A stretch of DNA of 26,924 nucleotides. It comes from a virus. The translations under genes were made by a program, and so were the position numbers. The notes under the pieces are model-generated. The model saw only the letters and a list, made by a program, of their open reading frames with translations. It ran no database searches and was not told the origin of the DNA. Below are positions 753-10,881 of this stretch, one piece after another; position 1 is the first letter of the stretch, and the number at the start of each line of letters is the position of its first letter. The DNA lies in the IMG/VR virus record IMGVR_UViG_3300015242_000039, positions 1 to 26,924 of that record; one strand, given 5' to 3'.

Positions 753-926
753 ATGGACAAATCAGAGATAAGAAAAGCAAGAAAGAGATTAAATATAAAA
801 GATTTTAGACAAAAACGACATACTGCCGGATTCCATAGATTAGAAGTCTATGTGCATGATGATTACAGGCAGATGGTCAAAGACTTTGTAACTGAGTTGA
901 ATAAGGAAATTCCGCATGAAATATGA
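753..926 (+). CDS. Small ribbon-helix-helix-like DNA-binding protein
   Basis: 57 aa. The first 22 residues are very basic (MDKSEIRKARKRLNIK, then FRQKRH). They are followed by a hydrophobic strand, HRLEVYVHDDY, and an amphipathic helix, RQMVKDFVTELNKE. A short beta strand then helix with basic flanks is the pattern of Arc/MetJ-type ribbon-helix-helix repressors; my call rests on pattern only. Ribosome site AGGGGG at 743-748, spacing 4. Its stop (TGA 924-926) overlaps the nuclease start at 916 by 11 nt, so the two are translationally coupled. It is a plausible candidate for the factor that binds the ACCGGTA operators, since it sits inside that regulon. Confidence 0.65.
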   Translation: MDKSEIRKARKRLNIKDFRQKRHTAGFHRLEVYVHDDYRQMVKDFVTELNKEIPHEI

Positions 927-1488
927 TCATATTTTACTCATCGCATGCTTTGTGTTTGCCACAGTATGTGTATTTTTTATTCCAAGAGGAAGCGCACTAC
1001 CTTTTTCACCTAATGCCAGCTATGAAGTTTGCTTTACGCCGGGAGAAGATTGCACCGCGCAAATTGTCGACACACTAAATAACGCGCAAAAAAGTATTTT
1101 AGTTATGGCATATAGTTTTACCAGTTTACCGATATTAGAAGCGTTATTAGATGCCAAAAATAGAGGTGTAACGATTGAAGTTATTTTAGACAAATCTCAA
1201 TTTGAAACAGAAAAATATTCCGTTTCAAGATTTTTGCATAATCAAGATATTCCTGTATGGATAGATGCTAAGCCAACTATTGCACATAACAAAGTTATGA
1301 TCGTAGATCAAGGAACTGTTATAACGGGTTCATTTAATTTCACGCGTGCTGCAAGAGAAAAAAATGCTGAAAATGTGTTAATTATTCAAGACAAGCAATT
1401 AGCACAGAAATATTTTGACAATTGGCAAAAACGCAAGATATCTTCTATGATCTGGAAAGAATATCAATCATACAAAGAGAAGAAATAA
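916..1488 (+). CDS. Exported Nuc-type phospholipase D family endonuclease
   Basis: 190 aa. Residues 5-22 are a hydrophobic signal or anchor segment followed by RGSALPF, a plausible signal-peptidase region, so the enzyme probably acts in the periplasm or at the inner membrane. The single HKD motif is complete: H124-N-K126-VMIV-D131, then G138-S139-F-N141 and E152-N153. One HKD per chain is typical of Nuc-like nucleases, which dimerise to form the active site and cut phosphodiesters through a phosphohistidine intermediate without metal. Length fits the Nuc family. It overlaps the upstream RHH-like gene and is followed directly (TAA then ATG) by a two-TM protein. A role in degrading incoming phage DNA (superinfection exclusion) is an inference. 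Confidence 0.9.
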   Translation: MKYDHILLIACFVFATVCVFFIPRGSALPFSPNASYEVCFTPGEDCTAQIVDTLNNAQKSILVMAYSFTSLPILEALLDAKNRGVTIEVILDKSQFETEKYSVSRFLHNQDIPVWIDAKPTIAHNKVMIVDQGTVITGSFNFTRAAREKNAENVLIIQDKQLAQKYFDNWQKRKISSMIWKEYQSYKEKK

Positions 1489-2391: not shown

Positions 2392-2448
2392 TTGACACCG
2401 GTACCATATCAATGGTATTATATCTTTATCAACTAGGGCAAGGTTGAT
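2392..2448 (+). promoter_or_regulatory. Promoter P3 of a non-coding unit, with operator core and 5' hairpin
   Basis: Consensus TTGACA (2392-2397), 18-bp spacer, TATTAT (2416-2421). The core ACCGGTA (2397-2403) shared with P1 and P2 overlaps the end of the -35 box and continues as CC, like the P1 operator with one base deleted. TACC (2402-2405) and GGTA (2414-2417) form a second, looser inverted pair. The transcript would begin near 2428 with the stem ATCAAC (2428-2433) / GTTGAT (2443-2448). No start codon with a ribosome site follows. Confidence 0.8.
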
Positions 2449-2536
2449 ATTCTCCACGTTAGCGGAGGTGTTTCAAAATTAACGCTCGGTAGTAATGGAG
2501 CTTTAAGACCTTCCCCACGATTGTGGGGGTGCTGAG
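2447..2536 (+). CRISPR. Solo mini-CRISPR: two type I-E-like repeats, one 32-nt spacer
   Basis: Repeat 1 is 2447-2475 and repeat 2 is 2508-2536; the spacer is 2476-2507 (32 nt); period 61. Both repeats have the layout 5 + 6-bp stem + 4-nt loop + 8-nt handle. Repeat 1: CTCCAC/GCGGAG, loop GTTA, handle GTGTTTCA. Repeat 2: CCCCAC/GTGGGG, loop GATT, handle GTGCTGAG. This is the geometry of the E. coli I-E repeat (29 nt, Cas6e hairpin, 8-nt handle, 32-nt spacer). The repeats share 18 of 29 bases and the stems differ by a compensated pair (T-A for C-G), though repeat 1 has one A-C mismatch. No cas gene is present. It has its own promoter, and its terminator starts at 2537. It could be a phage mini-array or a decoy RNA anti-CRISPR that occupies Cas6e/Cascade. 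Two repeats alone cannot prove this. Confidence 0.65.
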
Positions 2537-2566
2537 ATCCCCGAGAAATCGGGGATTTTTATTTTT
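2537..2566 (+). terminator. Rho-independent terminator
   Basis: ATCCCCGA (2537-2544), GAAA tetraloop, TCGGGGAT (2549-2556), then TTTTATTTTT. It is a textbook terminator for the + strand RNA unit. On the other strand no T-run follows the stem, so it does not stop the convergent operon whose last stop codon lies at 2559-2561. Confidence 0.92.
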
Positions 2567-2860: not shown

Positions 2861-3240
2861 TATTTTTCTCTCTGAAAGAAGAAAAGGGCAGTTTTTATGC
2901 AGGTGGTTATAACGCGATATTCTGCAGGCAATGTGAAATACAAATCTGCCACATCTTTACTAGGGGAATCACATAACTTAGACTGCCTAGCAGTCATATA
3001 TCCGGCGCATGAATTTTTATTTATTTCCATATATATACACGCATGCTCATTTTCCCAGTTTAAGCTTACACTTTCATTTTCTTTCAATTCAGCTACAGGC
3101 ATCAGAATATTTTTGCTAAAAGTTTCGAAGATATATATTAAGTGATAGTGAATCTCTTGGGGAATCACTTGCCCATATTCTTTTACTATTCCATCGATTA
3201 TTAGCTCCCCATAAGTATGGGGTTGATATAACTGTATCAT
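2860..3240 (-). CDS. Hypothetical protein
   Basis: 126 aa. Start fixed by an excellent ribosome site (GAGGAGG, four bases before ATG 3240). The N-terminal half is hydrophobic/aromatic (EIHYHLIYIFETFSKNIL) but not a clear membrane helix; the C-terminus ends with a hydrophobic patch, TALFFFQREK. No domain recognised. It is part of the left operon and has the strongest ribosome site there, so it may be one of its better translated products. Confidence 0.7.
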   Translation of the reverse strand: MIQLYQPHTYGELIIDGIVKEYGQVIPQEIHYHLIYIFETFSKNILMPVAELKENESVSLNWENEHACIYMEINKNSCAGYMTARQSKLCDSPSKDVADLYFTLPAEYRVITTCIKTALFFFQREK

Positions 3241-3315
3241 TTATCCTCCTCTATATAAAGTTGCATTATTTGCTCCATATACATCTGTATTTCTTGTATG
3301 TAATTTCTGCTTCAT
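3241..3315 (-). CDS. Possible 24-aa coupling micro-ORF
   Basis: MKQKLHTRNTDVYGANNATLYRGG. Its ATG overlaps the stop of the upstream gene (3312-3611) as ATGA, and its TAA directly abuts the ATG of the next gene at 3240. It therefore spans the whole intergenic gap in one frame. Its last codons contain the ribosome site of the next gene. Real product or coupling device is undecided. Confidence 0.35.
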   Translation of the reverse strand: MKQKLHTRNTDVYGANNATLYRGG

Positions 3316-3611
3316 TCCTCATTTTTTCTCATCCACTCTAGCATATCTTCTATAGTCTCCAAAGAACCTGCTGCACAATCAAGAGTTCTAGATAATGGCG
3401 CATATTCTTCTTGCTTATGTTTTAAATATCCCATAATTTTTTCACACATTTCTTCATATCCAAATTCATAACCATCTGAAAATCCTATCTCATGTCCTTC
3501 TTGATATATTCCTTTCAGAAGATTTTCAATTACCATATACAAGTTATGCTCTTCTAATAATTCGAATGCTTTTTTCAATTTAATTTCTTGATCACTATTA
3601 TTCTTTGACAT
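3312..3611 (-). CDS. Hypothetical protein, paralogue family A (copy 1)
   Basis: 99 aa, acidic, helical. Residues 15-43 (AFELLEEHNLYMVIENLL, then YQEGHEIGF) align with AFRLLQENNLDNCIRKHI and YQQGYESSH of its upstream neighbour at 3598-3936. Each also ends in a leucine/tryptophan helix (DMLEWMRKNEE; LSQWIETNVKE). The two are tandem duplicates that have diverged far. They overlap by 14 nt and must be co-translated. No known domain. Confidence 0.7.
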   Translation of the reverse strand: MSKNNSDQEIKLKKAFELLEEHNLYMVIENLLKGIYQEGHEIGFSDGYEFGYEEMCEKIMGYLKHKQEEYAPLSRTLDCAAGSLETIEDMLEWMRKNEE

Positions 3612-3936
3612 TAGTTTCTATCCACTGAGATAATTCTCTCAAACATTCATGCATTCCTCGCAAGTTTCCATGTCTCCAACCATCACAAAAAGTTTTATTG
3701 TCACCTCGTGGGGGTTGTGTTTCATCTAATTTCCATATCATACGTTGGATATGATGCCATATATTCTTATGGCTACTCTCATATCCTTGTTGATATGTAG
3801 TCTCAATGTGTTTTCTTATGCAATTATCTAAATTATTTTCTTGTAATAATCGAAATGCATCTTTCATTTTAATCTCATGCTGCATTATTTCGAAGAAGAC
3901 TTTGTCTAAATGTTCGCAATATGTTTGTTCATTCAT
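3598..3936 (-). CDS. Hypothetical protein, paralogue family A (copy 2)
   Basis: 112 aa from the ATG at 3936, chosen because GGAGAAA precedes it and it overlaps the upstream stop by 8 nt; the frame is open further (to 3993) but without a ribosome site. It shares the LLQENNL and YQQGYESSH blocks with the gene at 3312-3611 and has an inserted Gly/His/Trp-rich segment (FCDGWRHGNLRGMHE). Function unknown. Confidence 0.7.
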   Translation of the reverse strand: MNEQTYCEHLDKVFFEIMQHEIKMKDAFRLLQENNLDNCIRKHIETTYQQGYESSHKNIWHHIQRMIWKLDETQPPRGDNKTFCDGWRHGNLRGMHECLRELSQWIETNVKE

Positions 3937-4189
3937 CTTTCTCCGCTTCATTTTTGGCTTCCATCTCATCAAATATAATATTAATTTTTTCAACTAGCTT
4001 TTCTCTTACTTCTTCTTGAAAATTATTTATCCATTTCAACGCATAAGTAAATTCTCCGATAGTATCATTGCCATCTTTTACTGCATCTTCAAGAGAATCA
4101 ACAATAGATTCGATATTATACAGGCAATAACCAAGCACTCTGGTCATTCCGAGAATGTTATCTTTATTATCATTAAGTTTTTCATCCAT
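3929..4189 (-). CDS. Hypothetical protein, paralogue family B (copy 1)
   Basis: 86 aa from the ATG at 4189. That start is chosen because GGAGAAAAATA precedes it, the same leader found before its paralogue at 4907-5119; an upstream ATG at 4210 overlaps the previous stop but has no site. MDEKLNDNKDNILGMTRVLG, then YCLYNIESIVDSLED, matches MDEEQIIAIKGILRALAYAI, then SDIDCVADSIRDE, of copy 2. All-helical, acidic, no known domain. Confidence 0.7.
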   Translation of the reverse strand: MDEKLNDNKDNILGMTRVLGYCLYNIESIVDSLEDAVKDGNDTIGEFTYALKWINNFQEEVREKLVEKINIIFDEMEAKNEAEKDE

Positions 4190-4206
4190 TATTTTTCTCC
4201 ATTTTG

Positions 4207-4569
4207 TCATTGTTCACCATCTAAATTTCCATTAATAAAATAATTAATTTTATTTAGCGATTCCAATTGTCCTATTAAATATCCATATTTATATCCTGAA
4301 GAATATGAATCTGGATTATATGGTGTCAATTCTTTTGCATATAATTCTTCCCTCATATTATCAATGTAATTTTTTATTAACAGATGGGGAATTGTTATTT
4401 CTGAGGCGAGAGATGAATCATTATTCTTTGGCATTTCATCCTGTCCATATGCTATAAAAGTATGGATTGCTTTCATTAAAAGATCTGCCTCTTCACAATA
4501 ATACTTGCTTATTTTATCATTTAATAATTCAAATGAAATTTGGGTTAATTTTTTAGTTATATCATTCAT
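4207..4569 (-). CDS. Hypothetical protein, paralogue family C (copy 1)
   Basis: 120 aa. The N-terminus MNDITKKLTQI and the block LLMKAIHTFIAYGQDEM correspond to MNDIDKKLMDL and VLVKAISTFIEYRQNEI in the adjacent gene at 4569-4910, so the two are tandem duplicates. Start codon in a TAATG overlap with the upstream stop, with GGAAAT nearby. A Tyr/Gly-rich C-terminal half (YSSGYKYGYLIGQLES) resembles the GYxxGY pattern of the A family (GFSDGYEFGYEE), hinting that A and C share ancestry. Function unknown. Confidence 0.7.
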   Translation of the reverse strand: MNDITKKLTQISFELLNDKISKYYCEEADLLMKAIHTFIAYGQDEMPKNNDSSLASEITIPHLLIKNYIDNMREELYAKELTPYNPDSYSSGYKYGYLIGQLESLNKINYFINGNLDGEQ

Positions 4570-4910
4570 TATTTTATTTCCAATTTACCTTTTTCATATA
4601 TTTCTATCCATCGCATCATGCATGTTAGCGCTTCTTCATAAGCAGCTACATTACAATTTAAACGATTTCTCTCAATCATCAATTCCATATGTGTAAACAT
4701 ATCTTTACAAGTTTTTTCCATTCCCATATTTAAACCTTCTTTATATCTATCATGTCCACTAATTTCATTCTGACGATATTCTATAAAAGTAGAGATCGCC
4801 TTTACTAACACCGCCACATTAGTCGCAAATATCACATCTAGATTTCCCTCCAATATTACCGGAGATAATTCATCCATTAAATCCATCAATTTTTTGTCTA
4901 TATCATTCAT
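4569..4910 (-). CDS. Hypothetical protein, paralogue family C (copy 2)
   Basis: 113 aa, paralogue of its downstream neighbour (see the shared blocks there). The C-terminal helix MMRWIEIYEKGK resembles the terminal MLEWMRKNEE of the A family. ATGA overlap with the upstream gene indicates coupling. Together with the B genes on either side, the order B2-C2-C1-B1 looks like an inverted-order or stepwise duplication of a two-gene unit. Function unknown. Confidence 0.7.
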   Translation of the reverse strand: MNDIDKKLMDLMDELSPVILEGNLDVIFATNVAVLVKAISTFIEYRQNEISGHDRYKEGLNMGMEKTCKDMFTHMELMIERNRLNCNVAAYEEALTCMMRWIEIYEKGKLEIK

Positions 4911-5119
4911 CTTTTTTCTCCATTAACAATTTGAAGTAATTGATCCCCTAGTTTATCTTGATTGTCCCTTATACAATAAAGAGTATGAATTATTATATGT
5001 CTTGAATTTTCATCTTTTCCTTCGTCGCGTATAGAATCTGCCACGCAGTCAATATCACTTATAGCATAAGCTAGTGCGCGCAGAATGCCCTTTATTGCTA
5101 TAATTTGTTCTTCATCCAT
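4907..5119 (-). CDS. Hypothetical protein, paralogue family B (copy 2)
   Basis: 70 aa, helical and acidic. The leader GGAGAAAAATAATGGATGAA is identical to that of B copy 1 at 4189, showing that regulatory as well as coding DNA was duplicated. It starts in a TAATG overlap with the alpha-CTD-like gene upstream and ends in an ATGA overlap with the C gene downstream. No known domain. Confidence 0.7.
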   Translation of the reverse strand: MDEEQIIAIKGILRALAYAISDIDCVADSIRDEGKDENSRHIIIHTLYCIRDNQDKLGDQLLQIVNGEKR

Positions 5120-6480: not shown

Positions 6481-6714
6481 CTATTCATAGTCATATTTAA
6501 TTTTTATATATGAATGCGCATCGGTCGGTAATTTATTAAAAGAAGCCCATTGTTTCAAAAGAGTAATCCCATCTTTATCAATAACTAATAATTTTGTAAG
6601 AATAGTTCCAGTACTATTAGTAGTGCAAAGTTCTACTTTATCATCATCACAACTAAATATTAATGTTAACAACAATTGATCATGTTCAACTTCTTCATAG
6701 ACTTTAATTTTCAT
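6481..6714 (-). CDS. Hypothetical small protein, tandem family (copy 2)
   Basis: 77 aa, predicted mostly beta strand. It shares the pattern M-x-x-K-hydrophobic-YEE, LLLTL, then KVELC and a TGTILTKLLVIDKDG segment with copy 1 at 6750-6995. AAGGA lies about 12 bases before the start. Function unknown; tandem triplication in a phage operon suggests a dosage or diversification role. Confidence 0.7.
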   Translation of the reverse strand: MKIKVYEEVEHDQLLLTLIFSCDDDKVELCTTNSTGTILTKLLVIDKDGITLLKQWASFNKLPTDAHSYIKIKYDYE

Positions 6715-6749
6715 AATTTGCTTTCGTCCTTATAATTTGTTTCACATAG

Positions 6750-6995
6750 TTAAAGCATAGAAAAATCATTCGTAGGTATTAATTTAGTTCTTAAATAATC
6801 ATTTTCATCCAGTGATATTCCTTTAAAATCATCAGGCATTTTGTGAAATAATATTCCGGCTGCATCTATATATAATAAACTATTAATTATAATTCCTGCA
6901 GCATTTACTTGACATAACTTTACAGCACCCATACATTGAACTAACGTTAATAAAAATATTTCTTCTTTTGGTTCTTCGTAAATTTTAACATTCAT
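6750..6995 (-). CDS. Hypothetical small protein, tandem family (copy 1)
   Basis: 81 aa. First of three tandem paralogues. Recognisable blocks: MNVKIYEEPKEE, FLLTLVQC, AVKLCQVNAAGIIINSLLYI and GISLDENDYLRTKL. ATGA-type overlap (6992-6995) with the preceding gene. No known domain. Confidence 0.7.
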   Translation of the reverse strand: MNVKIYEEPKEEIFLLTLVQCMGAVKLCQVNAAGIIINSLLYIDAAGILFHKMPDDFKGISLDENDYLRTKLIPTNDFSML

Positions 6996-8593: not shown

Positions 8594-9093
8594 ATAATAT
8601 CCTTGTAAATAATTACTTAATTATACATGAATTATCCAGTATGGATACATACATCTTGTAGGTAAATGCCCTGTCTGCACTATACAGTTAGCATTAACAA
8701 AAAAAATCATTCTACTAGCAAGATGATCATTTATTAAAAAACGGATCAAAAATATTAGATCCTAAATAATAGACAAATGACTACAAATATATTGTCAAGA
8801 TGATGAAAATATATAAACTCTGCAAATATGCGATTTAAGGCATATACAGCATCGTTTCATTATCAACCCTAGGTTGTGTGCCATTTTATCTTAAAAACGT
8901 TAATCATGGCTGTTCATTCTCATTTTAACACTATCTTCTCCATCAATTTTAAATCACATGTAAAAATTTACTTAATAAAAAAATATTCTCATCATTAGTT
9001 TTAATCTATAGCTAGGCATATAAGTAAATAAGTAGTTTGTTTATATTGGTAGAGTTCAGATGGTGGTGTAGCACGTACACCACTTTAAAAAAG
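8594..9093. other. Non-coding region upstream of the origin
   Basis: 500 bp with no supported gene on either strand; the only + strand ORF of note (8907-8999, 30 codons) has no ribosome site. It is very AT-rich. Visible elements are a possible -10 TATAAT on the - strand at 8620-8625, paired GGATC/GATCC motifs near 8732-8762, AACCCTAGGTT near 8867, and the inverted repeat at 9063-9083. It probably forms part of the replication origin and the promoter region of the left operon. Confidence 0.5.
9063..9083. repeat. 8-5-8 inverted repeat next to the DnaA boxes
   Basis: GTGGTGTA (9063-9070), loop GCACG, TACACCAC (9076-9083), perfect arms, unusually GC-rich for this region and 10 bp before the first DnaA box. 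No strong T-run follows. It may be an initiator-binding site or a cruciform of the origin. Confidence 0.55.
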
Positions 9094-10587: not shown

Positions 10588-10881
10588 ATGGAATACGATG
10601 GGATAGATTTAGATAGAAGCGGTCTAGTACTTACACTTACTGTAGGTAAAAAAATATATATAGGTGATGAAATAATTATCACCTCATTACGTACAATAGG
10701 TGCACAGACTAAACTGCATATAAGTGCGCCTAGGCATATACAGATACTAAGAGACAGATTAAAAGCTAAGATAGCTGAAAGTGGAATTCCATGGGAAGAA
10801 CTTTCTACAAAAAATAGTCAAGCAATGATAGATGAATGGGATGATGGAATAAATTCATATGAAGATAGGAGAGGAATTTAA
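10588..10881 (+). CDS. CsrA/RsmA-like RNA-binding regulator
   Basis: 97 aa. Residues 12-61 align throughout with CsrA: GLVLTLTVGKKIYIGDEIII (12-31) against [20 protein letters not shown], then ITSLRTIGAQTKLHISAPRH (31-50) and IQILRDRLKAKI (51-62). L15 and R55 match CsrA L4 and R44, key RNA contacts, but the R6 and R7 positions are L17 and T18. It has an extra 11-residue N-terminus and a 35-residue acidic C-terminus (PWEELSTK ... EWDDGINSYEDRRG) that normal CsrA (about 61 aa) lacks. CsrA dimers bind GGA motifs in mRNA leaders; a phage copy could act on host or phage messages or poison host CsrA by heterodimers (inference). AAGGAG precedes the ATG; TAATG overlap with ERF. Confidence 0.8.
   Translation: MEYDGIDLDRSGLVLTLTVGKKIYIGDEIIITSLRTIGAQTKLHISAPRHIQILRDRLKAKIAESGIPWEELSTKNSQAMIDEWDDGINSYEDRRGI

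Follow-up and report, generated by a model that had tools for sequence, protein, structure and literature searches.

A two-repeat type I-E CRISPR unit with its own promoter and terminator in a phage record: a possible hard-wired crRNA gene

The linear virus record IMGVR_UViG_3300015242_000039 from IMG/VR comprises 26,924 bases at 33% GC and is probably incomplete. We analysed the record at its full length and refer to it as the window. The phage is tailed and probably contractile, because it encodes a baseplate hub of the E217 gp41 type, a baseplate J protein, an ERF recombinase and a lysozyme among others. Between a rightward open reading frame (2141-2386) and a leftward one (2559-2816), we find a non-coding, self-contained RNA unit at 2392-2559 that consists of a promoter, a 5' hairpin, a first repeat, a spacer, a second repeat and an intrinsic terminator (Table 1). 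The small open reading frames beside the unit have almost no family match. No near DNA matches to the window were found in phages, two proteins neighbouring the unit have no close relatives in IMG/VR, and relatives of the ERF recombinase are at most 50% identical and are accompanied by no comparable unit within the stretches examined. Further small leftward open reading frames of unassigned function, some of them paralogous pairs, lie in tandem at 3312-5119 and 6481-6995. Relatives of the PLD-type nuclease with 57-59% identity occur in small genomes and in one case adjoin chromosomal genes. The CsrA-like protein belongs to a group whose phage homologues (CsrA/RsmA) have been proposed as repressors of host CRISPR-Cas (PMC8450108), and it could complement the RNA unit by such a repression.

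Table 1. Features of the RNA unit and selected proteins of the window
Feature	Position	Strand	Remarks
sigma70-type promoter, TTGACA-18-TATTAT	2392-2421	+	upstream TG; ACCGGT core at 2397-2402 between the two boxes
5' hairpin	2427-2449	+	begins near expected transcript start; z -3.4
Repeat 1, type I-E, ATATT CTCCAC GTTA GCGGAG GTGTTTCA	2447-2475	+	
Spacer, 32 nt, AAATTAACGCTCGGTAGTAATGGAGCTTTAAG	2476-2507	+	no target found in the collections searched
Repeat 2, type I-E, ACCTT CCCCAC GATT GTGGGG GTGCTGAG	2508-2536	+	
Intrinsic terminator	2534-2559 (extended stem)	+	arms 2537-2544 / 2549-2556, then T-rich
PLD-type nuclease	916-1488		apparent signal peptide
CsrA-like protein	10588-10881		PF02599, 1.5e-12
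Baseplate hub of E217 gp41 type, baseplate J, ERF recombinase, phage lysozyme			encoded in the window

Both repeats have the geometry of type I-E, i.e. 29 nt with a 6-bp stem, a 4-nt loop and an 8-nt handle, and they follow each other at a period of 61 nt around a spacer of 32 nt. The stem of repeat 2 (2513-2518/2523-2528) is perfect; in that of repeat 1 (2452-2457/2462-2467) there is one A.C mismatch, and T-A stands in the place of a C-G pair of repeat 2. The 8-nt handle of repeat 1 occupies 2468-2475, while the corresponding handle of repeat 2 (2529-2536) is degenerate and contributes its last three bases to the extended stem of the terminator. Overall, the repeats are identical at 18 of 29 positions and differ at the other 11, so at most one of them can be identical to the repeat of a host. 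The private promoter and the terminator of the original prediction are both present, one in front of repeat 1 and the other directly abutting repeat 2. The 26.9-kb record, which is probably partial, contains no cas6e gene, and its scanned proteins gave no match to cas genes.

With a score of 11 out of 12, the promoter of the unit is the joint best within the first 12 kb. Promoter-like matches are no commoner in the window than in shuffled sequences, and the support for this promoter therefore comes from its context, since the first 2.4 kb contain three to four promoters with a common layout. Each of those at about 1, 357, 2088 and 2392 appears to give a transcript that opens with a hairpin some 20 nt long; behind the promoters located at 1-6, 357-385 and about 2088-2093 the hairpin lies in the same place as in the unit. 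The z-scores of these hairpins are about -3 or below in three of the four cases, the first being weak, and a hairpin near the transcript start perhaps serves as a 5' stabiliser. It had further been claimed that the unit shares an operator with nearby protein-coding units. This holds for the 6-bp core ACCGGT and the 5' hairpin but not for the whole 14-bp palindrome GGTTACCGGTAACC, which is complete at 364, occurs with one mismatch at 2073 and is represented only by its core in the promoter of the unit. ACCGGT was observed five times in the window compared with about 2.3 expected copies. The combination of core or palindrome with a start hairpin recurs at 1-60, 357-422, 2073-2132 and 2392-2449, and judging from these shared elements a common early regulon of the unit and its neighbours is plausible.

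Our analysis confirms the presence of a two-repeat type I-E unit. The exact geometry stated in the original prediction was recovered, and the pair is unique, as only one pair of 6-bp/4-nt stem-loops at a 61-nt period exists in the window and it corresponds to repeats 1 and 2. In 100 dinucleotide shuffles such pairs occurred at a mean of 0.07, with at most 10 of 29 positions identical in the best one. We also scanned all positions on both strands with a type I-E profile built from 23 arrays that had been picked by a core motif. Repeat 2 ranked first (24.6 bits) and repeat 1 second (13.2 bits), followed by the next-best position of the window at 7.9 bits; the maximum over 60 shuffles was 6.5. 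The agreement in the core is partly circular because the arrays of the profile were selected on it, but the 61-nt period, the 32-nt spacer and the handle are independent of this selection. The first seven bases of the repeat 1 handle, GTGTTTC, are those of type I-E arrays that adjoin cas6e. In two Enterobacterales genomes (G052 and G198), cas6e (PF08798) lies about 3 kb from arrays with this handle, which supports the assignment of the repeat class to type I-E; the locus around the G052 array has a GC content of about 35%. Neither repeat is identical to any of the array repeats examined. A search of the unit against Rfam gave only sub-threshold matches, which is uninformative given that Rfam also misses a bacterial array of the same repeat class (L156).

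No protospacer for the 32-nt spacer was detected in 50,697 phages, 72,556 plasmids, IMG/VR patterns and the genomes sampled, all of which are incomplete collections. Three partial matches in plasmids, with E values of 0.2 to 9 and covering at most 78% of the spacer, were judged to be due to chance. A self-regulation in the style of CreA is not supported, as seed matches between the spacer and the rest of the phage genome do not exceed in length those obtained with shuffles. We considered a CsrA sponge in regard to the CsrA-like protein of the phage and rejected it, since GGA is found in neither repeat hairpin loop. The host, taken to be AT-rich, could not be fixed via the baseplate hub, whose best matches of about 50% are scattered over Zoogloeaceae, Superficieibacter, Bartonella and others; none of 369 sampled genomes from one class gave a match. 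The PLD-type nuclease has its relatives in small genomes that belong to this class, but an array with the repeat of the unit was absent from all 16 genomes in the order concerned.

Scanned by pattern, IMG/VR yielded ordinary arrays and, in addition, two-repeat, one-spacer type I-E units in five unrelated sets of viral contigs (L005/L016/L017, L006/L024, L010, L015 and L023). None of the records in these sets contains Cas6e, and the last handle differs from the first in four of the five sets, L015 being the exception. Terminase and portal genes are present in L010, whose unit is directly followed by a T-tailed hairpin. In L023, a contig with tail genes, the unit lies at 3053-3147 and its spacer matches the tail-completion/Neck1 gene of the contig itself (3352-3383) at 29 of 32 bases, the mismatches falling on spacer positions 4, 12 and 15. 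Such a mismatched self-match is expected of a guide aimed at a relative, and this sequence match suggests inter-phage targeting. A check for conservation in related phages found no close relative of the window's unit and none closer than these five sets, although records very near the window may be omitted here. The related contigs L005, L016 and L017 contain two successive type I-E repeat pairs whose spacers are identical, and after them comes an inverted repeat that is long and perfect. Another viral contig, L003 with a GC content of 39%, carries mimics of the repeats of several CRISPR subtypes within about 170 nt of one strand (8840-9000, minus strand): a mimic ending GTGGATTGAAAC with a sub-threshold Rfam match to CRISPR-DR9, a type I-F-like mimic CCGCCGCACAGGCGGCTT with a compensated pair and a sub-threshold match to CRISPR-DR4, a type I-E mimic TTCCCCACGTATGTGGGGGTGTTTC and a fourth hairpin that precedes GGGTTGAAAT. 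This stretch may represent a multi-subtype RNA anti-CRISPR cassette.

Judged by its sequence features, the unit resembles virus-borne mini-CRISPR arrays most closely, in its presumed working as well. Mini-arrays of viruses target related viruses (Medvedeva et al. 2019, PMC6858448; modelling in PMC7099407) and share with the unit the lack of visible cas genes, one or two spacers, the geometry of a CRISPR subtype that hosts possess, an own promoter and the presumed use of host Cas proteins. However, the repeats of published mini-arrays are identical to those of the host and most of their spacers match related viruses, whereas the two repeats of the unit differ from each other and its spacer found no target in the collections searched. 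The phage-type promoter with an operator core in front and the terminator abutting repeat 2 also set the unit apart. The RNA anti-CRISPRs known as Racrs each consist of one solitary repeat unit, and RacrIF1 owes its activity to a product without a 5' handle (Camara-Wilpert et al. 2023, PMC10651486). Like Racrs, including RacrIE1 and RacrIE2, the unit is a phage-encoded CRISPR-repeat RNA with a strong promoter that should engage Cas6, but it differs from them by having two repeats at an exact period and a conserved handle. With repeats 61 nt apart it is not solitary in the sense of a Racr; still, it could act as an inhibitor by competition. The bacterial arrays with the GTGTTTC handle (G052 and G198, with their repeat class also present in the viral contigs L004, L007-L009 and L011-L013) have the 5-6-4-6-8 layout, the 61-nt period, the 32-nt spacer and the seven handle bases in common with the unit. 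Unlike the unit, they consist of near-identical repeats, and those of G052 and G198 adjoin cas6e.

A mature type I-E crRNA takes its handle from the upstream repeat and its hairpin from the downstream one, with the spacer in between. In the unit the repeat 1 handle and the repeat 2 hairpin are kept while the unused handle of repeat 2 is degenerate, which suggests that selection has kept one complete crRNA. Going by this pattern of conservation, the unit probably encodes a complete crRNA. We favour, with a probability of roughly 0.5, the reading that it is a hard-wired type I-E crRNA gene which loads host Cascade. Upon infection, the RNA would be made at a high level and cut by host Cas6e after 2467 and 2528. 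The resulting 61-nt product, with the handle GTGTTTCA, the spacer and the repeat 2 hairpin, would then assemble a complete host Cascade with the guide of the phage. The likeliest use would be to direct Cascade against a competing phage or another mobile element, with the simultaneous benefit that the host's own crRNAs would be displaced. The divergence of the repeats would limit the loss of the spacer by recombination and keep the guide fixed instead of letting an array grow. A fitting host would have a type I-E system with a repeat resembling GTCTTCCCCACGNNNGTGGGGGTGTTTC. Against this reading, the mismatch in the repeat 1 stem may weaken the binding of Cas6e. A role in redirecting or occupying host Cascade, as originally predicted, appears likely, and the chances that targeting is its main use are about even.

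A complete crRNA alone is no proof of targeting, since strong expression of a non-targeting crRNA likewise inhibits interference. The unit might be an anti-CRISPR whose complete but targetless crRNA is strongly expressed, fills Cas6e and Cascade and protects the phage, an alternative that we regard as a serious possibility. Expression of a non-targeting crRNA has been found to lower I-F interference and to let phage infect (PMC10651486), and such a role would agree with the strong promoter, with the missing target and with the additional CsrA-like protein, a class proposed as CRISPR repressors (PMC8450108). However, the missing target carries little weight, as for most spacers no match is known; published Racrs come without a handle, and the spacer of L023 does match a phage gene.

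The original prediction instead preferred a Racr-like decoy, in which the hairpins would titrate Cas6e and Cas7 and no true crRNA is formed, and argued that the diverged 5' and handle bases favour it. RacrIE candidates indeed inhibit a type I-E system (PMC10651486), the repeats have diverged from each other and the stem of repeat 1 is imperfect. But two repeats at the exact crRNA period are not solitary, the spacer measures exactly 32 nt and the argument from the handle is not supported, as repeat 1 keeps GTGTTTC. The divergence lies mainly in parts that a single crRNA does not need, which speaks for a functional crRNA rather than a solitary-repeat Racr and makes the decoy unlikely. We consider it very unlikely that the unit is an ordinary small RNA of the phage or the decaying remnant of a host array that no longer plays a role. 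The diverged repeats, the sub-threshold Rfam matches and the combination of stem-loops with a terminator, which fits many small RNAs, would be compatible with this. Against both speak the dedicated promoter with an abutting terminator, the two top-ranking profile positions at the exact period and a divergence that mostly spares what a crRNA requires.

Units of this kind are already known, but the presumed hard-wired form, its recurrence in unrelated contigs and the spacer match of L023 mark out a concrete class that is open to testing. Mini-arrays as targeting elements and RNA anti-CRISPRs as inhibiting ones have been treated separately, and units with a complete crRNA and diverged repeats fall between them. 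SRUFinder drops repeat matches with less than 90% identity to known repeats and would therefore probably miss the unit described here. Together, the two-repeat type I-E units in unrelated viral contigs, one of them with a spacer matching a neck gene, suggest an under-counted class. Tentatively, some phages may carry single-crRNA genes that combine diverged repeats and a fixed spacer with a promoter and terminator under phage regulation, and by which host type I-E Cascade would become a phage-directed tool, possibly in combination with a CsrA-like repressor of cas genes.
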